Assembly (NCBI GenBank): GCA_030428835.1
Contig: JAUIEP010000042.1
Span: 1 to 32,180, forward strand
Source of the DNA: Gammaproteobacteria bacterium
Lineage (GTDB): Bacteria; Pseudomonadota; Gammaproteobacteria; Pseudomonadales; Halieaceae
Length of the DNA stretch: 32,180 nt
Reading direction: 5' to 3'
Part shown: in pieces, positions 1,226 to 30,911 of the stretch
Numbering within the stretch: the stretch's first letter is position 1
How the letters are laid out: every line of letters starts with the position of its first letter
Notes under the pieces: model-generated
Database searches by the model: none
Told to the model about the DNA's origin: nothing
What the model saw: the letters and a program-made list of their open reading frames with translations, nothing else
Program-made: the position numbers and the translations under genes

Positions 1226-1256
1226 CGCTCGGGCGCGGCCGCCGCGAGCCTGGCAA

Positions 1257-2087: not shown

Positions 2088-2111
2088 AGTTCCAATACCT
2101 CTCAACGCTAG

Positions 2112-2753: not shown

Positions 2754-2786
2754 TCCTCGCTCCCTCACGCAGCCGGCCATGTGCCG

Positions 2787-4730: not shown

Positions 4731-4757
4731 CCGCCAAACTCCCAGTAGCCTGAAGCG

Positions 4758-4772
4758 GTAAACACTGTTTAC
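4758..4772. promoter_or_regulatory. Perfect 15-bp palindrome upstream of the kinase operon
   Basis: GTAAACA-C-TGTTTAC is a perfect inverted repeat with a single central base. It lies 28-42 bp before the kinase ATG (4730, minus strand), between that start and the end of the upstream HAD gene. Position and symmetry suit an operator for a dimeric regulator. The half-site TGTTTAC recurs in the TetR/carotenoid oxygenase intergenic region (9314-9320). Which regulator binds is not known. Confidence 0.5.
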
Positions 4773-4818
4773 ACACTAACCCGACAGTCTAACAGGCCTA
4801 TACGCACCAACTGCAAGA

Positions 4819-5469
4819 TCAGACCTGCAGCAGGTCGTCCAGTTCAGCGATCACCCGGGCCAGGTCCGTATCCACCAGGATGGCGTGCATGCCCAGCGAC
4901 CGGGCGGCCTCGACGTTGGCCGGGTAGTCATCGAGGAAAACCGTGCGCTGTGCGGGGACGCCGTCGAGCTGCGCCATCGCCAGCTCGAAAATACGCGGGT
5001 CGGGCTTGCGTACGCCCACGCTCGAGGAGTCGATGACGAAGTGGAACAACTCGTCGACCGGAATAAGGCCGCGCCAGCCGTCACCGAACTCCGCGACATT
5101 GTTGGTGATGATACCGGTGGCGTAACCGTCGTCACGCAGGCCGCGCACGCGCTCCACCAGGGGCTGGCGACTGTCGGCGCCGGCGTTATTGCCGGCCATG
5201 CGCATGAACAGGTCGTAGATGTCGATCTCCAGGCCCTGTTCCCGGCCGATCGCGAGGACCAGGTCGCGCGTCTTTTCCAGCGAGATCTCCCCGCGCTCGA
5301 GCTGGTGCCAGGGATGGTCGCCGTCGTGCTCGTAGGAACCGAAGACCACACCGGTGACCTGCGCCGGGCTCACTCCCAGTTCCTCGCCGTAGGCCTCCAC
5401 CGCGTGGAAGGGTGAATCGGTGAATACACCGCCGAAGTCGAAGAGTACGGCGTCGATGTGGGTCGTCAT
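4819..5469 (-). CDS. HAD-superfamily hydrolase (subfamily IA, YihX/epoxide-hydrolase-N type)
   Basis: A 216-residue cytoplasmic protein with the HAD motifs in order: motif I VLFDFGGVF with nucleophile Asp11, motif II as GIITNN, motif III Lys in GVRKPDPRIF, and motif IV VFLDDYPANV with the acidic pair. Motif I reads DFG where most phosphatases have DxD, as in the YihX-like and epoxide-hydrolase N-terminal branch, so phosphatase activity is likely but not certain. A cap domain occupies roughly residues 20-95. The ATG at 5469 has only a weak ribosome-binding site (GAG four bases away). It is divergent from the 2-hydroxyacid dehydrogenase gene, with about 145 bp between the starts. Substrate unknown; sugar phosphates are the common substrates of near relatives. 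Confidence 0.85.
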   Translation of the reverse strand: MTTHIDAVLFDFGGVFTDSPFHAVEAYGEELGVSPAQVTGVVFGSYEHDGDHPWHQLERGEISLEKTRDLVLAIGREQGLEIDIYDLFMRMAGNNAGADSRQPLVERVRGLRDDGYATGIITNNVAEFGDGWRGLIPVDELFHFVIDSSSVGVRKPDPRIFELAMAQLDGVPAQRTVFLDDYPANVEAARSLGMHAILVDTDLARVIAELDDLLQV

Positions 5470-5614
5470 TTACTCGGGTCCTTTACGCGCTTGTTGGGCC
5501 TTGCAGTACAGCGGCAGCACAGGCTCGCTCCGCATCGCCACTGGCCGGGCGTTGCCGGGGACGGCAGTATATCATTGGGTCCTCACTCGCGAGGAAGACC
5601 GGAGGTTCAGCAGG

Positions 5615-6766
5615 ATGATCAGCAGCGACTTTTTGGCAAGCGTCACGCCATATTGCATGGCACTGTGCCTGACCCTGGGCGCAGTGGCCGCGCAGGGTGC
5701 GGACTTCGACCCCGGGCCGATCGTCGAGGAACTCGGCCTGCGGGAGGGCAACACACCCATGGCGAAGAAACCGGGCTGGGCGCCGAAGAAGATCGTCGCG
5801 TTCCTCCTGCCGGGATCGGAGCAGGTGCAGGCCACGTACCGCGACGCCCTGGCGGGCGCCGCCGGGGAGGCGGAGCTGGTGATTGCCGCGCGCGGCGGCG
5901 ACGCCCTGTCGGCGGAGAGCCTGGCCGATGTCGATGCCGTGATCGGCATGTGCACACCGGTGCTGCTGAAGAACGCGGGACCCGACCTGCGCTGGATTCA
6001 CAACTACAGCGTCGGACTGGACTACTGCAAGGGCGCGACCCAAACGCAGCTCGACACCCTCACGGTCACGAACAACAAGCGCCTGTCCGGCCCGGCCATC
6101 GCGGAGCACAGCATCGCCATGCTGCTGTCGCTGACCCGCAACCTGCCCGCCTACCAGGCGGCCCAGGCGGAGGGCCGCTGGAGTCGCAGCTACGGCGCCG
6201 GGGTGACCTTCGGCGAGTTGCGCGGCAAGACCATGCTCGTGGTCGGTCTCGGCGGCATCGGCACGGAGATCGCGCGTCGCGCGCACGGCCTCGGGATGCG
6301 CGTGATCGCCACGCGCAATTCCTCGCGCAACGGGCCGGACTTCGTGGAATACGTGGGCCTGGCGGACGAGTTGCACAAGCTGGCGGGCGAGGCGGACGTC
6401 ATCGCGAATGCGCTCCCTCTCACCCCCGGTACCACCGGCCTGTTCGACAAGGCCTTCTTCGCGGCGGCGAAGCCGGGCGCGCTCTTCATCAGCGTGGGGC
6501 GCGGCAAGAGCACCGTCACCGCGGACCTCGTGGCTGCGCTCGAAGCGGGCCGGCTCTGGGGCGCGGCGCTCGATGTGACGGACCCGGAACCGCTGCCGTC
6601 GGAGCACCCGTTGTGGCGGATGGAGCGGGTGCTGATCACACCGCACGTATCGGCCGCGGGCGCGGACAGCACGCATCGCAGCGCCGTGATCGCTGCGGAG
6701 AACCTGCGGCGCTACGTGGCCGGGGAAAAACTGTTGAACGAGGTGGATCTGCGCAAAGGCTATTAA
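5615..6766 (+). CDS. D-2-hydroxyacid dehydrogenase family protein with N-terminal signal peptide
   Basis: A 383-residue NAD(P)-dependent dehydrogenase. The nucleotide-binding turn is GLGGIG (211-216), and the catalytic residues of the family are Arg296 (SVGRGK), Glu325 (DPEPLP) and His344 (TPHVSA). The ATG at 5615 has GGAGG nine bases upstream and opens a signal-like peptide (hydrophobic about 12-26, ending VAAQGAD). That is unusual, because these enzymes need soluble NAD(P)H and are normally cytoplasmic. A second in-frame ATG at 5759 has its own GGAGG 11 bases upstream and would give a 335-residue enzyme of ordinary family length without the signal. The true start, and so the location, is undecided. 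Members reduce 2-ketoacids or glyoxylate-like substrates; the substrate here is unknown. An SDR follows after a short gap that holds a palindromic repeat. Confidence 0.85.
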   Translation: MISSDFLASVTPYCMALCLTLGAVAAQGADFDPGPIVEELGLREGNTPMAKKPGWAPKKIVAFLLPGSEQVQATYRDALAGAAGEAELVIAARGGDALSAESLADVDAVIGMCTPVLLKNAGPDLRWIHNYSVGLDYCKGATQTQLDTLTVTNNKRLSGPAIAEHSIAMLLSLTRNLPAYQAAQAEGRWSRSYGAGVTFGELRGKTMLVVGLGGIGTEIARRAHGLGMRVIATRNSSRNGPDFVEYVGLADELHKLAGEADVIANALPLTPGTTGLFDKAFFAAAKPGALFISVGRGKSTVTADLVAALEAGRLWGAALDVTDPEPLPSEHPLWRMERVLITPHVSAAGADSTHRSAVIAAENLRRYVAGEKLLNEVDLRKGY

Positions 6767-6794
6767 CACCGCGCGGGCCGGCCTACCCGCCCCC

Positions 6795-6816
6795 GTGGGG
6801 TCGAATTCATTCGACC
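6795..6816 (+). repeat. Dispersed palindromic repeat, copy 1
   Basis: A 22-base element whose core is an inverted repeat, GGTCGAAT-TC-ATTCGACC (6799-6816). It matches the reverse complement of 24166-24187 at 21 of 22 positions, the only difference being at the palindrome centre. It sits in the 176-bp gap between the 2-hydroxyacid dehydrogenase and an SDR. The form is that of a short REP-like or RAYT-type intergenic repeat, though no transposase is in the window. The rest of the gap holds no recognisable promoter or gene. Confidence 0.6.
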
Positions 6817-6942
6817 AGACGGCGAGCACGCGGTGCACGTAACGCATTGCAACGGCCGCGCGCAATGTGTGTTTTTCGCGTTTCGCCACACCAACCCCTG
6901 TGCTATTAATGGGGCGCTGTCACCCTGCGCCGGACAACCGCC

Positions 6943-7743
6943 ATGTACGACAATCCCGAGACCGTTCTCATCACCGGCGCATCCAGCGGTATCGGCGCGG
7001 CGCTCGCCAGGCATTATGCCGCCGCCGGGCGCACCCTCTTCCTCGGCGGCCGCGACCAGGAGCGCCTGGACGCCGTGGCCCAGGACTGCCGCAACCGCGG
7101 CGCCAGCGTCTCGACGTGGGTCGGTGACGTCACCGACGAGGCGGGCATCCGCGACTGGATCATGAGCTGCGACGACGACAGGCCCCTGAATCTCGTCATC
7201 GCTAACGCCGGCGTCGCCCCCGGCGCAACCGCTGTCGGTGGCCTGCACCGGGCGGCGGTCGACGCCTTCGCCGTCAACGTGAACGGTGTGTTCAATACCA
7301 TTCACCCCGCGTTGGAGGCCATGACCAAACGCCGGCCCTACCCGGTGCGCGACGCCCAGGTGGCCGTGATGAGTTCGGTGATGGGGTATGTCGGCACGGC
7401 GCGTTCACCCGCCTACTCCGCCTCCAAGGCCGCGGTGAAGCACTACGGCCAGGCACTGCGCGGCGCGTTCCGCGGGACGGGCATCGGGGTGAGCGTGATC
7501 TGCCCCGGCTACGTCGGCAGTGCGCTCACGGCGCAAAACGCCTCCTACATGCCCTTTCTCATGGACCCGGAAAAGGCCGCGGCGACCATCGCGCAAGGGC
7601 TTGCGCGCAACAAGCCGCGCATCACCTTCCCGTGGCAGATGGTCATCCTCGCCCGGCTGGCGATCAACTTGCCCGGCTTTTTGGTCGACAGGCTCAACAA
7701 ACCCTGGGGCGTGGCGCGACTCGAGGATCAGCCGGACACCTGA
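6943..7743 (+). CDS. Short-chain dehydrogenase/reductase
   Basis: A 266-residue classical SDR. The cofactor motif TGASSGIG is at 11-18, NAG at 88-90, and the catalytic set is Ser145, Tyr158 and Lys162 (YSASK), followed by the usual VICPGYVGS segment. The C-terminal 30 residues (WQMVILARLAINLPGFLVDRLNKPW) are hydrophobic and may make a peripheral membrane contact, as in SDRs acting on lipids; this is inference. The ATG at 6943 has no strong ribosome-binding site, but the SDR fold begins within eight residues, so no other start fits. It converges on the carotenoid oxygenase gene (86 bp between stops). Substrate unknown. Confidence 0.85.
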   Translation: MYDNPETVLITGASSGIGAALARHYAAAGRTLFLGGRDQERLDAVAQDCRNRGASVSTWVGDVTDEAGIRDWIMSCDDDRPLNLVIANAGVAPGATAVGGLHRAAVDAFAVNVNGVFNTIHPALEAMTKRRPYPVRDAQVAVMSSVMGYVGTARSPAYSASKAAVKHYGQALRGAFRGTGIGVSVICPGYVGSALTAQNASYMPFLMDPEKAAATIAQGLARNKPRITFPWQMVILARLAINLPGFLVDRLNKPWGVARLEDQPDT

Positions 7744-7829
7744 CCGGCCACCGCGCCCGCCATCGTCATCGCGAAGAGCGCGCGGGGCCGCCGCCGTTCA
7801 CACCCGGACGGCGACACATACCTGCCCGA

Positions 7830-9257
7830 TCAACCGGGGCGCCAGCCACCGTGGAAGCCGGCGGGCACGCGGTGCGACAGGTGCACTTTGGCGACCGGTC
7901 CCGCACTGACGTCGAGTGCGTTGAAGATGAACAGGCTGCTGGTGCGCGTCTCGAAACTGGTGACCACTGCCAGCACGTGACCCTCGCCCTCCGCGGCAGT
8001 ATCCGATGCCGGCACGAAGATCGGCTCGGACACCAGGCTCTGCCCGCAGGAGTAGCGGTCTTCCCTCTTCGTCTCGTGGTCGTAGTGGCCGATCACGTTG
8101 TAGAAGTTGTCGTTCTCCGACAGCGGGCTCTTCAGTTGGCCGTCGGGCGAGGCGTACCAGCCGTGGCGGTAGGCGCGACCGGTATGGCGCGGGTCGCACT
8201 GCGGGAACTCGGACTCGAATTCGTCGATCCGGGCGAAGCTGCCCGTCGGCGTGGCCGCATTCATGTCGATCGTCCAGCGATTCAGGAAGGGCGCCACCTT
8301 GCCCGTGGGCTCACCGTTCGCCGTGGGAAACAGCGGCGCGGCCTTGAACTGGCAGGCATCCACACTGATGACGCCGTCCCGGTCGAACGCATTCATGAAA
8401 TGGAATACGAAACACAGCGGCATCTCGACCCACCGCACGTCATCGGTAGTGCCGCCGTGGCGCGGCAGCACGGCGACGTGGACGCCCTTGTCGGGTTCCC
8501 ACGCAAAGGGCGGTCCGCCCTCCATCGCGCGCTCGAGGCTTCCGGTGATCGGCATGATCGGGATCACGATGTAGTTCTCGGTGATCACGAAGTCGTGCAC
8601 CATCGACGAATAGGGTGTGGGTATGAAAGTGCTCTCGGTGAGAATGCCCTGCGCGTTGACCTTGTGCAGCATCACGTCCGCTGAAAACGGGGCGCTGGCC
8701 ATGTACGCGAAGAACACCATCTCACCCGTCGCCGGGTCGATCTTGGGGTGCGCCGTCATGGCGGTGTTGAGCTTGCCGCGAAAATCCCAGCTACCGACGG
8801 ACTCCAGGGTCTGCGGGTCCAGTTCGAAGGGGCGGTGCCCCTCCTCCATCACCAGCAGGCGGCCGCCGTGCCACACGATGGCGGTGTTGGCGAGGCCATC
8901 CCTGTCGGTCAGCACGAAGTCGCTGTACTCGGGCTCGCAGTCGAAGGGATTCATGGCATTGAGTACGTTGCGCCCCTCCCTGTCCTCCAGCTTCCATTTC
9001 GCGGTGCGCACCCAGCGGTTGTTGTAGTCCGCCTTGCCATCCTGCAGGTGGAAGGCGTGCACCATGCCGTCGCCGGCGAAGAAGTGGTAGTCCCCGCGCG
9101 GCGCGAAGCGCGGGTTGGGCCCCGCGCGGTACAGCGTGCCGTTCAGTGCCGCCGGGATTTCACCCTCTACGATCAGGTCCTTCGCATCGCACTCCATCTG
9201 GATGGCGCCGTACGGGAAATTCAGGAACGGATTGGTCTGGGACATCGGCTGGGACAT
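7830..9257 (-). CDS. Carotenoid oxygenase (RPE65/CCD superfamily)
   Basis: A 475-residue non-haem iron dioxygenase of normal family length. The four iron-binding histidines are evident: His170 (MTAHPKID), His221 (MVHDFVIT), His286 (FHFMNAFD) and His469 (AGFHGGW). Other family blocks are present, such as LNGTLYRAGPNPRF near residue 38 and DGDGMVHAFHL-like AGDGMVHAFHL near 61. The ATG at 9257 has GAGGG seven bases upstream. There is no signal peptide. The superfamily cleaves carotenoids, apocarotenoids or stilbenes such as lignostilbene, and sequence reading cannot separate these. Its gene is divergent from a TetR regulator with 125 bp between starts, so that regulator probably controls it. Cleavage products (aldehydes, ketones) would suit the neighbouring SDRs and alcohol dehydrogenase. 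Confidence 0.93.
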   Translation of the reverse strand: MSQPMSQTNPFLNFPYGAIQMECDAKDLIVEGEIPAALNGTLYRAGPNPRFAPRGDYHFFAGDGMVHAFHLQDGKADYNNRWVRTAKWKLEDREGRNVLNAMNPFDCEPEYSDFVLTDRDGLANTAIVWHGGRLLVMEEGHRPFELDPQTLESVGSWDFRGKLNTAMTAHPKIDPATGEMVFFAYMASAPFSADVMLHKVNAQGILTESTFIPTPYSSMVHDFVITENYIVIPIMPITGSLERAMEGGPPFAWEPDKGVHVAVLPRHGGTTDDVRWVEMPLCFVFHFMNAFDRDGVISVDACQFKAAPLFPTANGEPTGKVAPFLNRWTIDMNAATPTGSFARIDEFESEFPQCDPRHTGRAYRHGWYASPDGQLKSPLSENDNFYNVIGHYDHETKREDRYSCGQSLVSEPIFVPASDTAAEGEGHVLAVVTSFETRTSSLFIFNALDVSAGPVAKVHLSHRVPAGFHGGWRPG

Positions 9258-9281
9258 GCAAAACCCTCGGAAGTGTTATTG

Positions 9282-9330
9282 GTTTACAGTGGTAACATAG
9301 CACCGCCCCTCCATGTTTACAACATAAACA
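9282..9330. promoter_or_regulatory. Operator-like inverted repeats between carotenoid oxygenase and TetR genes
   Basis: Two imperfect inverted repeats lie in the divergent intergenic region: GTTTAC-agtg-GTAAC (9282-9295) and TGTTTA-caaca-TAAACA (9314-9330). Both use the half-site (T)GTTTAC. Autoregulation by the adjacent TetR protein and control of the oxygenase is the simplest reading, but the sites have not been tested. Confidence 0.5.
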
Positions 9331-9382
9331 CCGGACGCGTTATTTGTTAGCATGAGGGCCGGTTCCACACGGGAGGCGAGCC

Positions 9383-10006
9383 ATGACGGCGGCCAAGGCG
9401 AAGTATCACCACGGCGACCTGCGCACCGCACTGCTGGACGCGGCGCTCGACGTGATCGGGGAAATCGGCCCCCAGGGCCTGACGATACGCGAGGTGGCGC
9501 GCCGCGCTGGCGTGTCGCACGCCGCGCCCTACCGGCATTTCACCGACAAGGACGAACTGATCCTGGCCGTGGTCGAACGCGGCTTCGCGCTGCTGCAGCG
9601 CACCATGCGGGAGCGCAAGGACGCCGCCCCGCCCGACGCCATGCACCAGTTCGCCGCGAGCGGCATGGCCTACGTGGACTTCGCGCTGAACCACCCGGCC
9701 TACTACCGGGTGATGTTCTCCGGCGACCTTTTGTCCAGTACCGGCCATGTCAGCCTGCAGCACACCAGCAGCGAGGCGCTCCAGGACATGGTGGCCGACA
9801 TCACGCGCTGCCAGGAGCTGGGCATGGTCAGAAAGGGCGACCCGGTGCCCCAGGCCCTCGCCATCCTCTCCACCATCCACGGTTTCGTGTCGCTGGTGAA
9901 CGACAACCGTATCCAGCACCTGCTGGAGAACCCCTACACGCTCGACCAGATGCGCGACATGGTTGTGACGTCCATTTTCGAGGGTATCGGCGCCCGCACT
10001 GCCTGA
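9383..10006 (+). CDS. TetR/AcrR family transcriptional regulator
   Basis: A 207-residue regulator. The N-terminal helix-turn-helix is typical: ALLDAALDVIGEIGPQGLTIREVARRAGVSHAAPYRHFTDKDEL, roughly residues 15-59. The C-terminal ligand domain has the 'HPAYYRVMFSGDL' segment seen in the WHG/TetR_C_13-type group. The ATG at 9383 has GGGAGGCG seven to eight bases upstream. It is transcribed away from the carotenoid oxygenase gene and towards the TonB receptor operon, and inverted repeats lie in its own promoter. It most likely represses itself and the oxygenase until a lipophilic ligand binds. A role at the downstream receptor promoter (10029) is possible but that site looks different. Confidence 0.92.
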   Translation: MTAAKAKYHHGDLRTALLDAALDVIGEIGPQGLTIREVARRAGVSHAAPYRHFTDKDELILAVVERGFALLQRTMRERKDAAPPDAMHQFAASGMAYVDFALNHPAYYRVMFSGDLLSSTGHVSLQHTSSEALQDMVADITRCQELGMVRKGDPVPQALAILSTIHGFVSLVNDNRIQHLLENPYTLDQMRDMVVTSIFEGIGARTA

Positions 10007-10028
10007 GCAGCGCCGCGCCATAAAAAAT

Positions 10029-10070
10029 CAGTCAATTCTGTTTGTTTTTAAACAGGCCTTTTGGTACTGT
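10029..10070 (+). promoter_or_regulatory. Promoter of the TonB receptor operon with shared upstream element
   Basis: The element CAGTCAAWTCTGWTTG (here W = T, T) starts at 10029 and runs into a -35-like TTGTTT (10042-10047). Seventeen bases later is a -10-like TACTGT (10065-10070), leaving about 90 bp to the receptor ATG at 10162. The same element with identical spacing is at 15790-15831 before the SDR-ThuA-ACAD operon: 19 of the first 22 bases match. This is a good case for co-regulation by one DNA-binding protein. Confidence 0.6.
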
Positions 10071-10161
10071 TCTCACTGCCGTAGCGACCCGCCCGGGCGG
10101 ACCCCGGAGCGCGCCGTCGCGCCCCGGAAAAGCGCAATAACATAATATTCGCGGTGACCCC

Positions 10162-12555
10162 ATGTTCAGACGTGCCCTCCTTCCCGGACTCCCCCTGCTG
10201 ACGCTGTGCATCACCGTCCCGGCGCTGGCCCAGCCGGGCGAGAAACCCCTGCGGCAACGCTCCGCCCTCGCGCTGGAGGAGATCGTCGTCACGGCCAACC
10301 GGCGGGAGCAGAGCCTGCAGGAAGTGCCCATGTCGGTGTCGGCTTTCACGGGCGACTTCTTCAAGGACGCCGGTGTGCGCGACCTCGCCGGTTTGGAGCA
10401 GTACACCCCGAGCCTCAAGATCACGACCGGCACCGACTCCCGCTCCACGTCCATCCGCATCCGCGGCATCGGTTCGGTGGGCACCAATGTCGGCATCGAC
10501 CCGAGCGTCGGCATGTTCATCGACGGCGTCTACCAGGGGCGCGCGGGCATGAGCGTGGCGGACCTGATCGACATCGAGCGCGTGGAGGTCCTGCGCGGGC
10601 CGCAGGGCACGCTGTACGGCAAGAACACCGCGGCGGGGGCGATCAGCATCATCACGCGCAAACCCTCCGCCGAGCTGGAGAGCGAACTGGAGGCAACCTA
10701 CAACTCCGACGAGCGCCTGGAACTGCGCGGCATGGTCAACGTGCCGCTGGGTGACGGGCCGCACGCCACCCGCCTCACCGGCTTCCTTATCAACGGCGAC
10801 CACCTCTACGAGAACGAGGTGGACGGCCGCGGCCTCAACGACGCCGACAAGTGGGGATTCAAATCGCGCTCGCTGTTCGACGGCAGCGACAGCCTCGGCG
10901 AGTTCCTGCTGACGATTGACTACTCGAAGGAAGACACCGACTGCTGCGCCGTGGGCGTCATCGACTACAACGGCTATTCCACACTCAACGCGCCGGGCAC
11001 CAACCGTGACACACAGGCACTGGCGGACCAGCTCGGCAACAACGCCCAGGGCAACCCGATACTGGTGTACGAATCCTTCGAGGACTCCTCGGGATTCGCG
11101 CCGCCGGCGGCGGACCCCTTCGACGACAGCGAATGGGTGGACGCCGACATCTTCAACAAGATCGAGGTGGGCGGCGTCGCGCTGGAGTGGAACCGCGATG
11201 TGCTGCAGGACCACGTCGTCACCTTTATCAACGCCTGGCGCCACTACGAGGCGGAGTCTGCGTACGACGGCGACTTCATGGCCTACGACGCCGTGACCGG
11301 CTACCAGGACATCGAACTGGACCAGTACTCCTCGGAGCTGCGCCTGACCTCCCCCGGCGGCGAGAAGATCGACTACCAGGCTGGCCTGTACTTCTACCAC
11401 TCCGACCTCGACTCCATCGGCACCTTCGTGCAGTCCCAGGAGCTGGTGCAGAACATGAATATCGACGCGTTCTTCCCCGAGGGCACGCTGAATATCGACA
11501 CCAACAACTACAAGACCACGAGCTACGCGGCGTTCGGGCAGGTGGTCTGGAATGTTACCGACGAGTTCAGCGCCACCCTCGGCCTGCGCTTCACCTCGGA
11601 GACCAAGGAGCGCGTCGGCTCGCAGGTCACGCTGCCGGATTCAATACTGGACATCCCGCCGGTCGCGGGACCGAATATCTTCTACGACGAGGAGCGCCAG
11701 GACGACGACTTCTCGCCCTCCTTCAACCTGCGCTACTTCTTCACGCCCGAGATCATGGGTTACGCCAGTGTCAGCCGCGGCTTCAAGTCCGGTGGCTACA
11801 ACCAGCGCCGCGAACTCGAGGGCACCAGCGCCGAGTTCGACGAGGAGATCGCCACCAGCTACGAGATCGGCTGGAAGGGGTCCACCGAGGATCGCCGCCT
11901 GCAGCTCAACGGCACGTTCTACTTCGTCGACTACGAAGACTTCCAGTCACAGACCTTCAACGGCACCACGCTCGAGGTCACCAACGCGGGCTCCATGGAG
12001 AGCTACGGCACCGAGATCGAACTGGTCTGGGTACCCGCGGTCGACCTCACCATCAGCAGTGCACTGGGGTACAACAAGGCGGAGTACAAGGAGTTCGACC
12101 TCGGCCAGTGCACGATCGACGAGACGGTGCTCAACTACTACGTGCGCGACGGCGCCCAGGGCAGCAACCCGACCTTCGGCGGCGGCTGCGTCAAGGACCT
12201 CGCGGGCGAGGCCATCGACAATGCGCCGGAATGGACACTCAGTTCCTTCGCCCAGTACGACATGCAACTGGGCGACAACATGGTCGGCGTGGCGCGCCTG
12301 GAATACAACTTCGTGGACGAGTACTTCCTCGACCAGGACCTCGACCCGAAGCTGAAGAACGACGCCGTGCACCTGGTCAACCTGCGCTACACCGTTACCG
12401 ACCCGGAAAACACCTGGGAGGCCGCGATCTGGGGGCGCAACATCCTCGACGAGGAGTATTTCGTGTTCGGGATCGACGTTCCCGTCCTCGGGGGTTATGC
12501 GGGTGTGGCGGCCCCCGGCGCGGTATACGGTGTAACCCTGCGTTATATACACTAG
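10162..12555 (+). CDS. TonB-dependent outer-membrane receptor
   Basis: A 797-residue receptor. A signal peptide covers about residues 1-23 (cleavage after ALA), followed by a TonB box EEIVVTA (39-45). The plug domain (about 50-175) carries family signatures, including IRIRGIGSVG, SVGMFIDGVYQGR and IERVEVLRGPQGTLYGKN. The remaining 600 residues have the alternating aromatic pattern of a 22-strand barrel, with RYFFTPEIMGYASVSRGFKSGGYN in the middle, and end GVTLRYIH. The family imports iron complexes, vitamins and, in aquatic gammaproteobacteria, many carbon sources. This subtype, set beside catabolic genes and with no siderophore genes, more likely takes up an organic substrate (inference). 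It heads an apparent operon with the next three genes; the next start is 27 bp away. Confidence 0.95.
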   Translation: MFRRALLPGLPLLTLCITVPALAQPGEKPLRQRSALALEEIVVTANRREQSLQEVPMSVSAFTGDFFKDAGVRDLAGLEQYTPSLKITTGTDSRSTSIRIRGIGSVGTNVGIDPSVGMFIDGVYQGRAGMSVADLIDIERVEVLRGPQGTLYGKNTAAGAISIITRKPSAELESELEATYNSDERLELRGMVNVPLGDGPHATRLTGFLINGDHLYENEVDGRGLNDADKWGFKSRSLFDGSDSLGEFLLTIDYSKEDTDCCAVGVIDYNGYSTLNAPGTNRDTQALADQLGNNAQGNPILVYESFEDSSGFAPPAADPFDDSEWVDADIFNKIEVGGVALEWNRDVLQDHVVTFINAWRHYEAESAYDGDFMAYDAVTGYQDIELDQYSSELRLTSPGGEKIDYQAGLYFYHSDLDSIGTFVQSQELVQNMNIDAFFPEGTLNIDTNNYKTTSYAAFGQVVWNVTDEFSATLGLRFTSETKERVGSQVTLPDSILDIPPVAGPNIFYDEERQDDDFSPSFNLRYFFTPEIMGYASVSRGFKSGGYNQRRELEGTSAEFDEEIATSYEIGWKGSTEDRRLQLNGTFYFVDYEDFQSQTFNGTTLEVTNAGSMESYGTEIELVWVPAVDLTISSALGYNKAEYKEFDLGQCTIDETVLNYYVRDGAQGSNPTFGGGCVKDLAGEAIDNAPEWTLSSFAQYDMQLGDNMVGVARLEYNFVDEYFLDQDLDPKLKNDAVHLVNLRYTVTDPENTWEAAIWGRNILDEEYFVFGIDVPVLGGYAGVAAPGAVYGVTLRYIH

Positions 12556-24266: not shown

Positions 24267-26600
24267 CTAGAAGCGATAGCTTGCGGTTACGCCGATGGTG
24301 CGTGGCGGCGTGACCAGCAGTGAGTTATACCCGCCGATACGGGAGCGCCGGGTGATGACACCGTCTTCATCGAACACATTCTTCACATACAACTGCGCCG
24401 TCCATTCTTCACTACGCAGGCCGGTGAACAGGTCTAGTGTGGAATAATCATCCGTGTCCAGTCGACCTTCGACGTCACCCGGGGATTCCGTATCGCCCTT
24501 GTAACTCCAAAGACCGCTCAGGTAAGCCTCGCCACCCGCCACTTCCCCGATTGCATAATCGGCACGCAGGGTGCCCGTCCACTCAGGCTGCGTCGACGCG
24601 GTCTCGCCATCTGCATCACAGATGTTATAGCGGTTGTTGGGGCCGACTTCGGGCTGGTTCGGATCGGTGCACGGTACGACTCCGTCTGTGAATTCCACGT
24701 TGGCGTAGGTCAAACCGGCATGCAGCAACAGGTCATCGGTCGCCTGCATGCTGAATTCCACCTCGAAGCCACGCTGCACCGCCTCGTCCACGTTGACCCA
24801 CGGTGCATTGCTGGCGATTTCGGCCATTTCCGTTGCGACGTTGTACGCCGTGAGGCCCACCGCCTGCGTCTGGTAATCCTCGTAGACGCTGTAGAAAATC
24901 GCGGCGCCATAACGAGCACGGCCGTCGAACAAGTCGCCCTTCGCGCCGAATTCGATGCTGTCCACCGACTCGCCGTCGTAGAACGTCAGATCCGGGGCGA
25001 ATACACCTGTCGTATCGAAGTTGGGAGCGCCCGGGCGGAAGCCGCGATCCAGCGTGACGTAACCGATCAACTCTTCACTGAAAAAATGCGACAGCTTGAT
25101 GGTCCCCGTCCACTCTTCCCAACCGAAATCACCGGCCCCGACGAAACACGGGGGCACGCCCTCGCCGCCGGTGGCTGCACAGGTAGGCACCTGGTTGATG
25201 GCGGGAAACACATCCTCGAAAATCAGGAGTGGCGGCGGGAACGTGCCGCCGGGCTGTAAGGCAGTGCCGATGTTAAAGTCGCCGGTGAGGACAGTGCCGT
25301 CGCTCTGGTCAAACTCATTGTAGCGCACACCAATGGTCAATTCGGTGTTCTCTGACAGCGCGATGGTGTTGTGCGTGAACAGCGCCTTGGTTTCACTTTC
25401 CAGCGGAATATCGATGATGATATTGAAGACCCCGCCACTGGCCGGCACGTCCGCAAAGGTGTTGACGTCCGTCTGCGATTTAGCCTCCGCGTAGTAGGCG
25501 CCCACAATCCAGTCCCAATTGTCGAAGGCGGTACCCGAAACGCGCAGCTCGTGCTGAAAGGCGTCCCCATCGTCGCCGTAGTGAGAAGCATTTTCCAGCG
25601 TCGACGCGGGAATATCGGTACGGTCGTTGTCCTGGTAATCCAGTGAGTCGGATTCCAGCACGCCGTAGAAGTACTTCACGTCAATGTCGCCAATACTGTA
25701 ATCCACGTGTGCGGAGAAGAACGTTTCGTCGCGCTTGCGCAGCTCCATCGGTGCATCGGCGATCGCCTCACGATCATCGGCCTCGATTCCCTGGAACGCG
25801 GCGGTCGGGTCAAACCCAGGCTGGCCGGCCTTGATAGTCTCTACGGGTCGATAGATATCGGAGGGGTCGTCCACCTCCGTGCGGGTAAAGCCCAGCTTTA
25901 CTTGCAGATCCGTCGTGGGCTGCCACAGCAGCTTTGCGCGCAAGCCGCTACGATTGCGTTCCTCGTCCACGCGGTTGACGGGATTGACATTTTCCAGGCC
26001 GGTTTCGCGATCATCCGTCAGCCCGGCCAGGCGCAGCGCGAGTTGGTCATCAATCAGCGGAATATTCACCGCGCCCTGGAGGTTGAATCCCTCGGGGTCG
26101 TACTGGTAGCTGCCCTGGACATGGCCGTTGATGCCGTCGAAATTCGGATCTTGCGTGTGCAGGATCAGCGCACCCGTCGGCGAGGGCTGGCCGTACAGCG
26201 TGCCCTGCGGACCGCGCAATACCTGCACGCTCTTCATGTCGAACATGCTCCCCAGGGCGAAGGCTGCCTGCGAGGACATATAGTAGTCATCCATGTACAC
26301 ACCGACGCGGGACGGCGCGCTCTGCTGCTGGAAGGTACCCACACCGCGCAGGCCGACGCCCACCTGGCTGTCACCCTCGAAACGGATCTCGGTACCGGTG
26401 AGCACCTTGTTCAACTCGTCCGCCTGGAAAATAGACAGGTCCTCGATCTGCTCCGCGCCGACATAGCTCACGGCGACGGGCGCCTCATTCAGGGTCTCTT
26501 CCTTTTTCTGGGCGGTTACGACAACCTCTTCCAACACGGCATTGGCCATGCCGGGCGCAAGGGCGAGTGCAGTGGCCAGGGCCAGGGGCGAGCGCTTCAT
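24267..26600 (-). CDS. TonB-dependent outer-membrane receptor
   Basis: A 777-residue receptor. The ATG at 26600 has AGGAGA eight bases upstream and starts a signal peptide (MKRSPLALATALALAPGMANA); a frame extending to 26699 is unlikely to be used. The TonB box is EEVVVTA (24-30), the plug contains VGVGLRGVGTFQQQ, DDYYMSSQAAF and VQVLRGPQGTLYGQPSPTGA, and the barrel ends ...TIGVTASYRF with the typical C-terminal Phe. Two sampled 60-base lines inside it (25261 and 25381) are 58% and 50% GC, against 72% in a matching sample of the first receptor (10741), so it may have a different history. It is a single-gene unit with its own terminator. The ligand is unknown; it may feed the adjacent ThuA/Gfo-Idh cluster. 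Confidence 0.95.
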   Translation of the reverse strand: MKRSPLALATALALAPGMANAVLEEVVVTAQKKEETLNEAPVAVSYVGAEQIEDLSIFQADELNKVLTGTEIRFEGDSQVGVGLRGVGTFQQQSAPSRVGVYMDDYYMSSQAAFALGSMFDMKSVQVLRGPQGTLYGQPSPTGALILHTQDPNFDGINGHVQGSYQYDPEGFNLQGAVNIPLIDDQLALRLAGLTDDRETGLENVNPVNRVDEERNRSGLRAKLLWQPTTDLQVKLGFTRTEVDDPSDIYRPVETIKAGQPGFDPTAAFQGIEADDREAIADAPMELRKRDETFFSAHVDYSIGDIDVKYFYGVLESDSLDYQDNDRTDIPASTLENASHYGDDGDAFQHELRVSGTAFDNWDWIVGAYYAEAKSQTDVNTFADVPASGGVFNIIIDIPLESETKALFTHNTIALSENTELTIGVRYNEFDQSDGTVLTGDFNIGTALQPGGTFPPPLLIFEDVFPAINQVPTCAATGGEGVPPCFVGAGDFGWEEWTGTIKLSHFFSEELIGYVTLDRGFRPGAPNFDTTGVFAPDLTFYDGESVDSIEFGAKGDLFDGRARYGAAIFYSVYEDYQTQAVGLTAYNVATEMAEIASNAPWVNVDEAVQRGFEVEFSMQATDDLLLHAGLTYANVEFTDGVVPCTDPNQPEVGPNNRYNICDADGETASTQPEWTGTLRADYAIGEVAGGEAYLSGLWSYKGDTESPGDVEGRLDTDDYSTLDLFTGLRSEEWTAQLYVKNVFDEDGVITRRSRIGGYNSLLVTPPRTIGVTASYRF

Positions 26601-26708
26601 CTTATAGTCTCCTGAGTTAACCGGATGATTTTCTGGGTCAAGATTGCACAACTGTGACTGCCACATGCTAGGCAATAGCGCGCGCGGCCCACAGCACATA
26701 ATCCGCCA

Positions 26709-26816: not shown

Positions 26817-27662
26817 TCAGGGGCCGCCGGCGACCCACTCGATAGCGTTCAGCACGAGGTTGCGCGCGTTGTCGTCGTCCCAGTTGTGGTGGAAGTGCCC
26901 GCCGGTATAGCCGAAGCCCCGTCCGCCGCCGGGCCGCTCGTAGGCCCAGGCGACCACCTGCGGCACCCCGCGCGCGACCAGTTCACGCACGGCGTCATTG
27001 CCGCTGTGGGGCCCGTTGCCCCGCTCCATGGTGTGCCCGGGAGCCACCGCGCTCAGCAGGGGTGTCACCCCCGCGGGCTGGAAGCGCATGTTGAAGTACC
27101 ACTCGTCGAGCATGCTGAAGGGCGCGATACCCCGCGTGACCGGGTGCTCGGGCAGCGCGGTGAAGTCCGCCTCCCAGTGCGGGTTGACCGACCAGTGGGT
27201 CTCGAAATAACCGCCGATGGCGCGTAGCATCGCCGCCGCCTCCACCCCCTGCGGCGGCACCTCCACGCAGTAATGCAGCGCCGCCACGCCCACGCCCGCA
27301 TCGAGCAGGCGCTCGAACTGCGCGATATGCGGGTTCACCGGGTGACCCCTGCCGCCGTCGCAGTACATCACCAGGGCGTCGATATCCCGCAGCAGGGCCG
27401 CGTCCTCGGGCCAACCGCCGTAAACCGCCGTTATCTCGATGTCGGGTCGCCGCGCGCGCAGTTCCTCGATCAGGAGCCGCGTCCCCGCCTCGTGCTCGTG
27501 CGCCCGCGGGCCGTGGCTGTCCCTGCCCGCCATGAACAGCACCCGCGCGCCGGGTTCCCCCGCGGCGGCATGGTGCTCCACCGACGGCTTGCCGGAGAAG
27601 CAGCCGCCGGCTCCGGCGAGAACGAGCAGTGCGAGGCAGGTCTGTCGGGCGCGTTGCAGCAT
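26817..27662 (-). CDS. ThuA domain-containing lipoprotein
   Basis: A 281-residue exported ThuA-like protein. The ATG at 27662 is preferred because AGGA lies about six bases upstream; the ATG at 27674 is an alternative. A lipoprotein signal ends at AGGC with lipidated Cys21, and there is no Asp at +2, so the outer membrane is the likely site. ThuA blocks include ARVLFMAGRDSHG, a DALVMYCDGGRGHPV segment, GVAALHYCVE, GGYFETHWSVNPHW and GRGFGYTGGHFHHNW near the C-terminus. It is divergent from the SUMF1-fold/oxidoreductase/ThuA genes, about 100 bp apart. Together they form a set of exported proteins, which points to periplasmic or surface sugar chemistry (inference). The reaction of ThuA-like lipoproteins is not established. 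Confidence 0.88.
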   Translation of the reverse strand: MLQRARQTCLALLVLAGAGGCFSGKPSVEHHAAAGEPGARVLFMAGRDSHGPRAHEHEAGTRLLIEELRARRPDIEITAVYGGWPEDAALLRDIDALVMYCDGGRGHPVNPHIAQFERLLDAGVGVAALHYCVEVPPQGVEAAAMLRAIGGYFETHWSVNPHWEADFTALPEHPVTRGIAPFSMLDEWYFNMRFQPAGVTPLLSAVAPGHTMERGNGPHSGNDAVRELVARGVPQVVAWAYERPGGGRGFGYTGGHFHHNWDDDNARNLVLNAIEWVAGGP

Positions 27663-27765
27663 GGTGTTCCTCATTGGTGGCCGCGCCCGCGGGCACGATT
27701 AAGCCTGATTTTAAGGAGCCGCCATACAGTGCACAATGAGCCCTGACCTGCTGGAGTAAACCGCC

Positions 27766-28746
27766 ATTCGCTCCCCGACCGGATTTTTCACGACCCTCCT
27801 GTTGTGGCTCTCCTGCCAGGCATCCGCGGCGGCCGACTTCGCGCCGTTCAGCGTGCGGTTGCCGGCCGCTGCGCCCGCCATCGAGATGCTGCCGGTCAGC
27901 GGCGGCCGCTTCCTCATGGGCAGTCCCGAAAGCGAGGTGGGGCGCGACGCCTCGGAGTCGCCGCAACACGAGGTCAGCGTCGGCGATTTCTGGATGAGTC
28001 GCTTCGAGATCGACTGGCAGCAGTACGAACTCTTCGTGTACCGCGACGCCGCCGAGTTCGGCAGGCGGGCGCCTGCGGCCACGCTGGAGGCGCTCGCGAT
28101 CGACGCCGTTACCGGCGCTACCGCTCCCTACGCCGATATGAGTTTCGGCATGGGCAAGGCGGGCTACCCGGCCATCAACATCACCCGCCACGCCGCACAG
28201 GCCTACGCGCGCTGGCTGAGCGCCCGCACGGGCCGCTTCTTCCGCCTGCCGACCGAGGCCGAGTGGGAATACGCCTGCCGGGGCGGCACGACGACGCCCT
28301 GGTCGTTCGGCGCCGCCGCCGATGCCGCCGGCGAACACGCGGTCCACGCGGGCAACAGCGGCGGTCAGTACGCGCGCACGGGCACCCGAGCCGCCAATCC
28401 ACTGGGCCTGCACGACATGCACGGCAACGTGGCGGAGTGGACGCTCGACCAGTTCGCCGCATACCCGGACGCGGCGGTGCAGGATCCCTACAACCCGCCC
28501 ACGGACCTCTACCCCGGCGTCGTGCGCGGCGGCTCGTGGATGGACGAACCCGCGGCGTTGCGCTGCGCCGCGCGCCGCCCATCCGCACCCGAGTGGAAGG
28601 AGCGCGATCCACAGTTGCCCAAGAGCCTGTGGTGGCACACCAATGCGCCCTTCGTCGGCTTTCGCCTCGTGGCGCCGCGGGTGCAACCGCCGCCGGAAGA
28701 ACTGCGGCGCTACTGGCTCGAGCCGATGGAAGACTACGGCATCTGA
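27766..28746 (+). CDS. Secreted SUMF1/FGE-fold protein lacking the FGE cysteines, probable ATT start
   Basis: A 326-residue protein of the formylglycine-generating-enzyme fold. Fold signatures are VSGGRFLMGSPESE, RLPTEAEWEYACRGG, LHDMHGNVAEWT, VVRGGSWMDEP and the closing FVGFRLV. Both catalytic, copper-binding cysteines that true FGE carries just after GGS are absent; the one nearby Cys is in LRCAARR. So it is probably not a sulfatase activator, and no sulfatase gene is present. No ATG, GTG or well-placed TTG gives the full product. An ATT at 27766 has GGAG nine bases upstream and produces a complete signal peptide (residues 1-23, ending ASAAA). TTG 27802 would cut the signal in half and has no ribosome-binding site. 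It is followed 21 bp later by the Gfo/Idh/MocA gene. Confidence 0.8.
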   Translation: MRSPTGFFTTLLLWLSCQASAAADFAPFSVRLPAAAPAIEMLPVSGGRFLMGSPESEVGRDASESPQHEVSVGDFWMSRFEIDWQQYELFVYRDAAEFGRRAPAATLEALAIDAVTGATAPYADMSFGMGKAGYPAINITRHAAQAYARWLSARTGRFFRLPTEAEWEYACRGGTTTPWSFGAAADAAGEHAVHAGNSGGQYARTGTRAANPLGLHDMHGNVAEWTLDQFAAYPDAAVQDPYNPPTDLYPGVVRGGSWMDEPAALRCAARRPSAPEWKERDPQLPKSLWWHTNAPFVGFRLVAPRVQPPPEELRRYWLEPMEDYGI

Positions 28747-28767
28747 TGCAAGCAAAGGAGCACGACC

Positions 28768-30093
28768 ATGAGCGAAAACAAGAACGATAAACACACGCTG
28801 AACCGGCGCGATTTTACGCGGCGCACCACCCTGCTCGCCGGTGCCACGCTACTGGGGAACATCGCCACGACCGCCCACGCCGCGGGTTCCGACACCCTCA
28901 AGGTCGCGGTGGTCGGCTGCGGCGGCCGCGGCACCGGCGCGGCGCGCCAGGCCCTGAAAGCCGACCAGGGTGTCGAGGTCGTGGCGCTGGCCGATGCGTT
29001 CGCCGACCGGGCCGCGAAGTGTGCCAAGGTGTTGCGCCGCGTCGGCGGCAAGCGGGCCACGGTCCCGCAGGAACATATCTTCGTCGGCTTCAATGCCTTC
29101 CGCGAGGCCATAGACCTCGCCGATGTGGTGATCCTCGCCACACCGCCGGGGTTCCGCCCCGAGCACTTCGAGTACGCCGTGTCCCGCGGGCGCCATATCT
29201 TCATGGAGAAACCGGTCGCCACCGACGCCTACGGCGTACGCCGGGTGCTCGACGCCGCGCGCAGGGCCCGGGAGCAGAAGCTGAACGTGGTCGTCGGCCT
29301 GCAGCGGCACTACCAGCCCTGCTACCTCGAGGCCCTGGAGCGCTATCGCTCGGGCGCCATCGGCGAGATCGTGGCCGGACAGGTGTACTGGAACTCCAGC
29401 GGCGTGTGGGTGCGTCCGCGGGAGCCCGGCCAGACGGAGATGGCCTACCAGATGCGCAACTGGTACTACTTCAACTGGCTGTGCGGCGACCACATCCTTG
29501 AGCAGCACATCCACAACATCGACGTGGCGAACTGGTTCCTCGGCGAGCTGCCTTCGAGCGCGCAGGGCATGGGCGGCCGCCAGGTGCGCAACGGGCCCGA
29601 CCACGGCGAAATCTTCGACCACCATTTCGTCGAGTTCACCTACCCCTCGGCCGCCGTCATCAGCAGCCAGTGCCGGCACCAGCCCGGCTGTGCGGAGATG
29701 GTGGAGGAGCGCTTCCAGGCCACCGGCGGCAGCCTGTACACCAACGGCGGCAACAAGGCCGTACTGCAGAATCGCGCGGGAGACACCCTGTACAAGCACA
29801 ACGGGTTGTTCGACACCTCACCCTACCAGGTCGAGCACGATGAGCTGTTCGCGAGTATTCGCGCGGGCGGGCACATCGACAATGCCGACTACGGCGCGCA
29901 TGCGACACTCACCGCGATCATGGGGCGCATGGCAACCTACACCGGCCAGCGCATCGGTTGGGACGAGGCGCTGCAGGCGAATCAGCGCCTGGTGCCGGAC
30001 TCGGCGGACCTCGACTGGGACGTCGCGCCGCCGACCCGGCCGGACGCCGACGGCCGCTACCCGGTGCCGGTGCCCGGCAGGACGAGCACCTGA
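28768..30093 (+). CDS. Tat-exported Gfo/Idh/MocA family oxidoreductase
   Basis: A 441-residue NAD(P)-dependent sugar-type oxidoreductase. The N-terminus has a twin-arginine signal (NRRDFTRR at 12-19, then a mild hydrophobic stretch ending AHAAG), so it is exported folded with cofactor bound, as in periplasmic glucose-fructose oxidoreductase. The nucleotide-binding motif is VVGCGGRGTG (48-57), the catalytic Lys lies in EKPVA (147-151), and a conserved CGDHILEQHIHNID block (239-252) supplies the active-site histidines. The ATG at 28768 has AAGGAG eight bases upstream. It lies between a SUMF1-fold gene and a secreted ThuA gene. The nearest described pairing is ThuA with ThuB, which oxidises disaccharides at C3; an exported version of that chemistry is a reasonable hypothesis. 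Confidence 0.92.
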   Translation: MSENKNDKHTLNRRDFTRRTTLLAGATLLGNIATTAHAAGSDTLKVAVVGCGGRGTGAARQALKADQGVEVVALADAFADRAAKCAKVLRRVGGKRATVPQEHIFVGFNAFREAIDLADVVILATPPGFRPEHFEYAVSRGRHIFMEKPVATDAYGVRRVLDAARRAREQKLNVVVGLQRHYQPCYLEALERYRSGAIGEIVAGQVYWNSSGVWVRPREPGQTEMAYQMRNWYYFNWLCGDHILEQHIHNIDVANWFLGELPSSAQGMGGRQVRNGPDHGEIFDHHFVEFTYPSAAVISSQCRHQPGCAEMVEERFQATGGSLYTNGGNKAVLQNRAGDTLYKHNGLFDTSPYQVEHDELFASIRAGGHIDNADYGAHATLTAIMGRMATYTGQRIGWDEALQANQRLVPDSADLDWDVAPPTRPDADGRYPVPVPGRTST

Positions 30094-30107
30094 CGGAGGA
30101 CTGCACC

Positions 30108-30911
30108 ATGGCGAAACGGCTGCTACTGCTCTTGATGCTCAGCACGGCCACCCTGGCCCATGCCGGGCCGCGCGTGCTGTACATCACCCATGAACCGGGC
30201 CGCTGGCACGACTACAGCGCGCAACTGGCCACGTTCCGCGCCGTCGCGGCCGACGCACAGTGGGATCTCAGCGTCGCGACCGGCGACGTGGACGCCCTCC
30301 TGGCCTTCCTGCAAAGCCCGGACTACGCCGCGGGCCAGGACGTGCTGGTGTACAACTTCTGCCTCGCGGACTCGCGTGATATCGCCGCCATGTCGAACCT
30401 GGTTGCGCAGACCGAGGTGGCGGGCGTCCCCGCCCTGCTCATTCACTGCGCGATGCACAGCTGGTGGGACACGTTCAAGAAAGGCAGGAAGATCCCCGGC
30501 AATGACGGGGAGGCCCGCGCCAACCGCAAGTTGCTGAAGCAGTGGCTGAAGGACAACCCCGACACGCCGCTCCCGGCGTGGGGCGACTTCACCGGCGTGG
30601 CCAGCACCAGGCACGGGCCGAAAGAGCCGATTGCGCTGCGGGTGAGCGGCGCGCATCCCGCCACGGGCAACCTGCCCGCCGGGTACAGCACGCAAGCCAC
30701 CGAGCTGTACAACAATCATTACGTCATGGAGGGCGTTGAGCCGCTGCTCTACGGCAAGCAGGGCGATGACGAGGCCATCGTGATGTGGACGGTCGCGCGC
30801 GGCGCGGGCCGCATCGTCGGACTGACGCTGGGTCACGCGCAACCGGAGTGGTCGGACGCGGTGTTCCTGCGGTTACTGACCGACAGCGTGAACTGGCTGG
30901 CGGAAGACTAG
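30108..30911 (+). CDS. Secreted ThuA-like protein
   Basis: A 267-residue protein with a signal peptide (MAKRLLLLLMLSTATLAHAG). The ATG at 30108 has an ACGGAGGA site seven bases upstream; the open frame continues back to 29958 but only inside the preceding gene. ThuA features are RVLYITHEPGRWHDY at the mature N-terminus, DVLVYNFCLAD, PALLIHCAMHSWW (about 115-127), TELYNNHYVMEGVEPLLYG and GRIVGLTLGHAQPEW near the end. It differs clearly from the lipoprotein ThuA at 26817 and so is not a recent duplicate. Third gene of the SUMF1-fold/Gfo-Idh/ThuA operon, 14 bp after the oxidoreductase stop. Its TAG overlaps the stop of the convergent desaturase (CTAG 30908-30911). Probably periplasmic. Confidence 0.88.
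   Translation: MAKRLLLLLMLSTATLAHAGPRVLYITHEPGRWHDYSAQLATFRAVAADAQWDLSVATGDVDALLAFLQSPDYAAGQDVLVYNFCLADSRDIAAMSNLVAQTEVAGVPALLIHCAMHSWWDTFKKGRKIPGNDGEARANRKLLKQWLKDNPDTPLPAWGDFTGVASTRHGPKEPIALRVSGAHPATGNLPAGYSTQATELYNNHYVMEGVEPLLYGKQGDDEAIVMWTVARGAGRIVGLTLGHAQPEWSDAVFLRLLTDSVNWLAED

Follow-up and report, generated by a model that had tools for sequence, protein, structure and literature searches.

A cluster of four genes at positions 26,817 to 30,911 of a 32,180-nucleotide stretch of gammaproteobacterial DNA (GenBank contig JAUIEP010000042.1, family Halieaceae; hereafter the window) encodes two ThuA-like proteins (ThuA1 and ThuA2), an exported protein of the SUMF1 fold (SUMF) and an oxidoreductase of the Gfo/Idh/MocA family (GFO). 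The conserved core of this cluster is the SUMF-GFO pair, which also occurs in Bacteroidota and Planctomycetota. What is new is that, in other genomes, the pair is often accompanied by the flavin transferase ApbE and a TIM-barrel isomerase, and that in three Bacteroidota its SUMF part is fused to a NapC/NirT cytochrome domain. We read the cluster as a horizontally acquired periplasmic sugar-oxidation module in which SUMF would relay electrons from GFO-bound reduced nicotinamide adenine dinucleotide (NADH), perhaps by way of covalently bound flavin mononucleotide (FMN); we consider this reading about as apt to be right as wrong.

The SUMF-GFO pair in other phyla and its linkage to ApbE

An earlier note on this DNA had described a sugar-oxidation module with two distinct ThuA proteins and a SUMF1-fold partner. 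In the gene neighbourhoods compared here the core is instead the SUMF-GFO pair, which recurred in two phyla. Near home the module is rare: at E≤1e-40, the window's own genome was the only one with a GFO among 369 sampled from its class. At E≤1e-60, GFO was found in 64 of 395 Bacteroidota and 49 of 149 Planctomycetota genomes. We compared 43 Bacteroidota loci (40 from the upper part of the match list and three others) and 17 planctomycete loci (the first 15 places of the match list and two others), excluding two short contigs (L023, L025) from the counts. Because the open reading frame (ORF) caller had kept antisense shadow ORFs in high-GC loci (L179, L181, L190 to L192 and L055), the pair counts were redone with tblastn. 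A SUMF gene no more than 4 kb from GFO was present in 32 of the 43 Bacteroidota loci (29 times directly upstream on the same strand) and in nine of the 17 planctomycete loci. One of the 32 (L098) is a different SUMF-fold protein and was dropped before the motif counts.

ApbE lay within 4 kb of GFO in 17/32 Bacteroidota and 8/9 planctomycete loci with SUMF, but in only 2/11 and 0/8 of those without it. Pooled, this gives 25/41 against 2/19 (Fisher p 2.5e-4, with kinship ignored; the loci are phylogenetically non-independent, and L185 and L186 are near-identical). Two later Bacteroidota samples of 20 loci each had ApbE at 8/10 loci with SUMF and 4/10 without, and at 7/17 with and 2/3 without, the second sample having been chosen partly to view second loci. 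Over all samples, ApbE accompanied 40 of 68 loci with SUMF and 8 of 32 without. In 27/27 ApbE copies both H280 and D308 are kept, with residues numbered as in the copy of the window's genome (G000) that is linked to nqr. The TIM-barrel isomerase (PF01261) was within 4 kb in 20 of the 43 Bacteroidota loci and in none of the 17 planctomycete loci.

When the search was started from SUMF, 24 of 119 planctomycete genomes matched, at 28 places; 20 of these were fetched, most of the others being already in the set. Thirteen of the 18 loci in this sample whose SUMF has the loop described below have ApbE nearby. Among the five misses, L239, L243 and L244 have less than 1 kb of contig upstream, and L245 and L249 at least 3 kb. 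The other two SUMFs of the sample lack the loop, and neither has ApbE in its vicinity. In four of the thirteen (L238, L240, L241, L242) SUMF and ApbE adjoin with no GFO match in the stretch.

Other arrangements were seen as well. Two Bacteroidota loci (L298, L299) read SUMF, GFO, ApbE and a second GFO, with a TIM barrel further on, a set that is split over two loci in relatives (L278, L282, L288). A Bacteroidota single-cell genome (L021, positions 519-11320) joins GH20, a GH109-type and another Gfo/Idh/MocA protein, a 3-keto-disaccharide hydrolase, GH2, SUMF, a TIM barrel and GFO.

Cytochrome fusions

NapC/NirT cytochromes connect quinol with periplasmic partners by electron transfer. In a Parabacteroides distasonis genome (NZ_OY725790; L265, positions 4198-5775) a domain of this type (PF03264, 79.1 bits) is fused to a SUMF domain (142.9 bits), and the fusion gene is followed by GFO and then by the TIM-barrel isomerase; four CxxCH motifs were counted by eye. 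Searching with the parts of this protein (tblastn) revealed a like fusion beside GFO, again with four CxxCH, in two more Bacteroidota (L290, L291). In all three the loop reads DAISGPT. Given the quinol role of these cytochromes, the fusions offer the clearest hint of a part for the SUMF domain in handling electrons from GFO.

The flavinylation-type loop and the nature of SUMF

Published ApbE substrates carry D-x-x-[S/T]-G-A-[S/T], the final residue being the one that bears FMN; replacing Asp by Ala had a minor effect, and replacing either Gly by Ala or Ala by Val reduced flavinylation to about half (PMC12052999). The window SUMF matches this motif exactly with DAVTGAT. Across 43 aligned SUMFs, that of the window among them, the segment begins with Asp and ends with Ser/Thr in every sequence, and 40 have Ser/Thr at position 4. 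GA occupies positions 5-6 in four (the window, L028, L055 and L021), and L244 is a fifth such case. Among 499 ORFs called in 40 loci with ApbE, none had a canonical D..[ST]GA[ST]; this count rests on the ORF caller, and some genes went unseen in it, as its set contained only 28 SUMF and 33 ApbE ORFs. In an earlier set of 661 ORFs, with D or N allowed at the start, the motif occurred twice, in the L021 SUMF and in the signal region of one GFO. Eight SUMF-fold genes on plasmids, which have other neighbours, showed neither the loop nor an annotated ApbE nearby, with three segments unlocated by anchor and gene tables incomplete. On a plasmid of Prosthecochloris aestuarii (L266, positions 1179-4154), a diversity-generating retroelement (Avd and reverse transcriptase) lies beside a formylglycine-family gene.

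The window SUMF scored 142.9 bits against PF03781, and its best NCBIfam match was PvdO (107.2 bits, cut-off 500). The conserved catalytic cysteines of a formylglycine-generating enzyme (FGE) are lacking: of the positions that keep their residue in 93% or more of 43 homologues, none is Cys or His. The description of this protein as cysteine-less in the earlier note thus holds for a conserved active-site cysteine but not literally, as the window protein contains three. A C-terminal segment, DPQ.P.S.W, is conserved among the homologues. The frame opens with ATT at 27766, preceded by GGAG and giving 326 amino acids, or with TTG at 27802; ATT 27766 is the probable start codon. A length of 326 amino acids is also that of the G013 homologue, whose start codon is GTG.

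The GFO enzyme

That GFO is an exported sugar-type dehydrogenase of the Gfo/Idh/MocA family was upheld by Pfam (PF01408, 51.1 bits), phmmer and fold matches. The GCGGRG and EKP motif positions are conserved in 59 to 62 of 62 GFOs, and RR.[FLIM] stands near the N-terminus in 60 of 62, window included (L110 excluded). The predicted model (predicted local distance difference test score, pLDDT, 80.3; residues 1-39 unreliable) matches Gfo/Idh/MocA sugar dehydrogenases by fold, at 15-17% identity in the alignments listed. Glucose-fructose oxidoreductase, a Tat-exported enzyme with bound cofactor, and aldose-aldose oxidoreductase are both among the phmmer and Foldseek matches. Against the BT_2158 glycoside 3-dehydrogenase model NF058561, GFO reached 44.7 bits (cut-off 750). 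None of the four proteins attained an NCBIfam cut-off; GFO came nearest to the models for inositol 2-dehydrogenase and BT_2158, and SUMF to that for PvdO.

Conservation in the family and origin of the cluster

Conservation of the set in relatives was confirmed: ThuA1 is divergent from SUMF-GFO-ThuA2 also in G013, of the same genus, and in G079, of another genus of the family, at 62-74% identity. Flanking genes differ on both sides among the three carriers. At the site of the G079 set, between the same pair of flanking genes (judged by eye, one transporter-like and one of Rieske type), G077 has only the C-terminal parts of ThuA1 and ThuA2, meeting at one point as a deletion scar, and G080 has ThuA1 alone. 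In G013 the cassette lies on two contigs, C18 and C46 (L028, L029), of about 19 kb each and mostly more than 99.9% identical, a duplication or an assembly artefact. The host genome G000 has four ApbE genes. The fourth (G000:C204, G013:C3, G079:C1) is present in the three carriers and absent in three non-carriers, and so looked like a dedicated enzyme; in G013 it adjoins a DUF3570 gene, and the idea was set aside.

In a maximum-likelihood tree of 62 GFO rows, from which L110 was dropped by the program, the three gammaproteobacterial rows form a clade (100/100) nested within a clade of 21 rows (100/99) whose other members are Bacteroidota; this nesting supports transfer. The SUMF tree also places the gammaproteobacterial copies with Bacteroidota (98/95 with nine rows), with a nearest neighbour different from that in the GFO tree. 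These trees support a Bacteroidota-like source from which SUMF and GFO were acquired horizontally, and a single joint donor seems likely. GC content at third codon positions is 0.88-0.90 in the four genes and 0.88 in the neighbouring enoyl-CoA hydratase gene; this similarity gives no indication of recent foreign DNA. No relatives were found among viral contigs.

The suggestion of transfer in the earlier note is thus upheld for SUMF and GFO, by the rarity of GFO in the class, its frequency in Bacteroidota and the GFO tree, but not for the ThuA proteins. ThuA2 was found in none of 296 Bacteroidota genomes at E≤1e-10 (a search without positive control), and home-made ThuA1 and ThuA2 profiles, which distant ThuAs could escape, found none among the ORFs called at the loci of Bacteroidota and Planctomycetota; the ThuAs were therefore rejected as part of the transferred unit.

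The ThuA proteins

Both proteins passed the PF06283 cut-off of 33.4 bits, with 67 and 37.2 bits. ThuA2 is tied to the SUMF-GFO pair, and ThuA1 is mostly separate in relatives. Full-length ThuA2 occurs only in G000, G013 and G079 among 140 family genomes, always with SUMF-GFO; no ThuA2 was found at E≤1e-10 in 149 other sampled genomes of the phylum. ThuA1 is present in 17 of the 140, the G077 remnant included. In 12 of 12 further loci (ten genus members, G080 and G099; by ORF clustering) it has no adjoining SUMF or GFO, and nine of these occupy one common other site with an identical overlapping neighbour. The earlier note's module with two ThuAs is thus not supported in so far as ThuA1 would be an obligate part.

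The other 16 genus members have a different ThuA-like gene (frames of 334-459 amino acids, 36-47% identity over the N-terminal part), which has no match in G000 or G013; the cassette may have replaced it in these two genomes. In both loci read (L057, positions 6906-7958, and L058) this gene adjoins a cytochrome P450-like gene, recognised by eye.

Gene order, export signals and neighbours

The window is contig C49 of G000 (5.23 Mb, 319 contigs). The four predicted genes are confirmed as real, with ThuA1 on the reverse strand and SUMF, GFO and ThuA2 following on the forward strand (Table 1). As the earlier note had it, the spacing is tight or divergent, with 21 bases between SUMF and GFO and 14 between GFO and ThuA2, and a TonB-dependent receptor is the neighbour. 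Its view that all four products carry export signals, of three kinds, also held when these were read by eye: ThuA1 has a lipobox-like AGGC (LAGC in the G079 copy, LAAC in that of G013), SUMF and ThuA2 have Sec-like signals, and GFO has a twin-arginine NRRDF.

The receptor had been suggested as a possible feeder of the module, which was not substantiated. Its best matches are in G014 (68%) and G004 (55%), both without GFO, against 36% in the cassette-bearing G013, and it was rejected as a module member. The eight proteins scanned, from the four genes and the four ORFs that flank them, include no ABC transporter, and in this the cluster departs from the thuEFGKAB operon.

Table 1. Features of the cluster and its neighbour in the window
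Feature	Position	Strand	Basis
ThuA1, putative lipoprotein	26817..27674	-	PF06283
SUMF1-fold exported protein (SUMF), conserved GFO partner	27766..28746	+	FGE-sulfatase PF03781
SUMF loop DAVTGAT, residues 113-119; candidate FMN site Thr119 (codon 28120-28122)	28102..28122	+	exact D-x-x-[S/T]-G-A-[S/T]
Gfo/Idh/MocA oxidoreductase (GFO)	28768..30093	+	GFO_IDH_MocA PF01408; RR codons 28804-28809; EKP 147-149, H249, D252 conserved
ThuA2, Sec-type signal	30108..30911	+	PF06283, C-terminal part matched
TonB-dependent receptor, neighbour outside module	24267..26699	-	Pfam

Proposed function and alternative explanations

To our knowledge, NAD-dependent enzymes have no free NAD pool outside the cytoplasm, and the re-oxidation of exported NAD enzymes is therefore an open question. 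In the module that we propose, GFO would oxidise a hydroxyl of a sugar or glycoside, probably at C3, using bound NAD. SUMF, presumably not a formylglycine enzyme, would re-oxidise the NADH outside the cytoplasm and hand the electrons to cytochromes or quinone, and a host ApbE may attach FMN to Thr119 of the window protein. ThuA2, perhaps with ThuA1, would process the keto-sugar, by analogy with ThuA/ThuB; in Bacteroidota the TIM-barrel isomerase would fill this role of ThuA2. More generally, and tentatively, the SUMF1-fold family might consist of unrecognised ApbE-dependent covalent flavoproteins or cytochrome-fused relays that re-oxidise exported, NAD-bound Gfo/Idh/MocA sugar dehydrogenases and so link extracytoplasmic sugar oxidation to the respiratory chain, the transferred gammaproteobacterial pair using the canonical motif with a house-keeping ApbE; this generalisation we rate as doubtful.

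A number of observations weigh against the electron-relay proposal. There is no ApbE in the window cluster, near 28 of the 68 SUMF-GFO loci, near the three cytochrome fusions or within reach of the loci with the canonical GA motif; this last fits the use of a house-keeping ApbE and equally no flavinylation at all. Positions 5-6 are RP, LP, TP, KP or RA in 39 of the 43 SUMFs, and ApbE prefers GA. In seven more distant SUMFs A or E replaces the Asp, and the last Ser/Thr is kept wherever the loop was found. L021 is not a sister of the gammaproteobacterial copies in the SUMF tree, so GA may have several origins. The predicted SUMF model is poor (pLDDT 47.9) and gives no view of loop exposure, the fold matches of GFO single out no one substrate, and the ThuA roles rest on analogy. 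ApbE near a SUMF-less GFO, as in the six later loci (4/10 and 2/3), may point to another ApbE target. All six of those genomes carry a SUMF-GFO pair at a second locus, which softens this objection and leaves it standing; in G559 and G382 both halves lie together in the order SUMF-GFO-ApbE-GFO, and in G413 both contigs end inside an ApbE match, so that its two loci may be one and ApbE perhaps counted twice.

One alternative follows the earlier note, which saw in the cluster a periplasmic module for 3-keto-type oxidation: the keto-sugar would be made and processed by GFO with the help of both ThuAs, SUMF would be a non-redox sugar-binding domain or scaffold, and ApbE would serve unrelated proteins. 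Two papers lend this some weight, one citing rhizobial thuAB for 3-keto derivatives (PMC10433430) and one recording a periplasmic glycoside 3-dehydrogenase, BT2158 (PMC11300592), as do the 3-keto-disaccharide hydrolase and GH109 domains of the L021 cluster. It is at odds with the ApbE linkage in two phyla and in different arrangements, with the NapC-type fusions and with ThuA1 lying mostly apart from the other genes, and we hold it to be possible but rather improbable. SUMF might instead act catalytically on the sugar, before or after GFO, as an EgtB-like metal enzyme or a PvdO-like one, since EgtB and PvdO share its fold and PvdO is its best, though sub-threshold, NCBIfam match. The want of Cys and His among the highly conserved positions of the homologues speaks against such a catalyst and makes an EgtB-like His triad unlikely; this explanation is improbable as a whole. 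Finally, the differing flanks in the three carriers could suggest a chance neighbourhood of unrelated exported proteins. This is contradicted by three genomes in which the four genes keep one order, each time at a different site, and by the recurrence of SUMF-GFO across two phyla, and is very improbable.

Significance and comparison with known systems

A dedicated partner with flavin-transferase linkage in two phyla and cytochrome fusion in three genomes makes the re-oxidation of exported dehydrogenases testable with few proteins. If true, the electron-relay proposal would assign a function to a group of proteins now labelled SUMF1/EgtB/PvdO or placed in the formylglycine-generating enzyme family, as well as to certain apbE genes without a canonical target alongside. 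The flavin reading, if borne out, would raise the cluster above the status of a variant. Among the matches listed in the openly accessible literature, none joins ApbE with SUMF1 or Gfo, and formylglycine-generating enzyme, Gfo Idh MocA, ThuA and ApbE searched jointly returned a sulfatase paper only. The terms formylglycine and FGE are absent from the main text of three ApbE papers (PMC8238504, PMC11334425, PMC12052999), and SUMF from that of two of them.

Like the cluster, BT2158-type glycoside 3-dehydrogenase is an exported Gfo/Idh/MocA enzyme, known from Bacteroidota; here a SUMF partner is present and the score is 44.7 bits against 750. Loss of BT2158 is reported to abolish growth on trehalose, leucrose and palatinose (PMC11300592), and a further paper proposes DUF1080 hydrolases for keto-sugar processing in other systems (PMC9007349); the L021 cluster contains one of these. 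Rhizobial ThuA/ThuB likewise sets a ThuA domain beside a Gfo/Idh/MocA enzyme, whereas here export signals and SUMF are added and no ABC transporter is found among the eight scanned proteins. With glucose-fructose and aldose-aldose oxidoreductases GFO has the fold in common, but at 15-17% identity and with a dedicated partner protein. Like the ApbE-flavinylated proteins (FMN-bind, DUF2271, DUF3570, FMN_red, Flavodoxin_4), SUMF is an exported protein with D-x-x-[ST]-G-A-[ST], and its relatives have apbE nearby; it differs from them in its SUMF1 fold and in the variant motif of most homologues. FGE, PvdO and EgtB share PF03781 with SUMF, which has no conserved cysteine, carries a conserved DPQ.P.S.W as a putative further difference and is linked to GFO.

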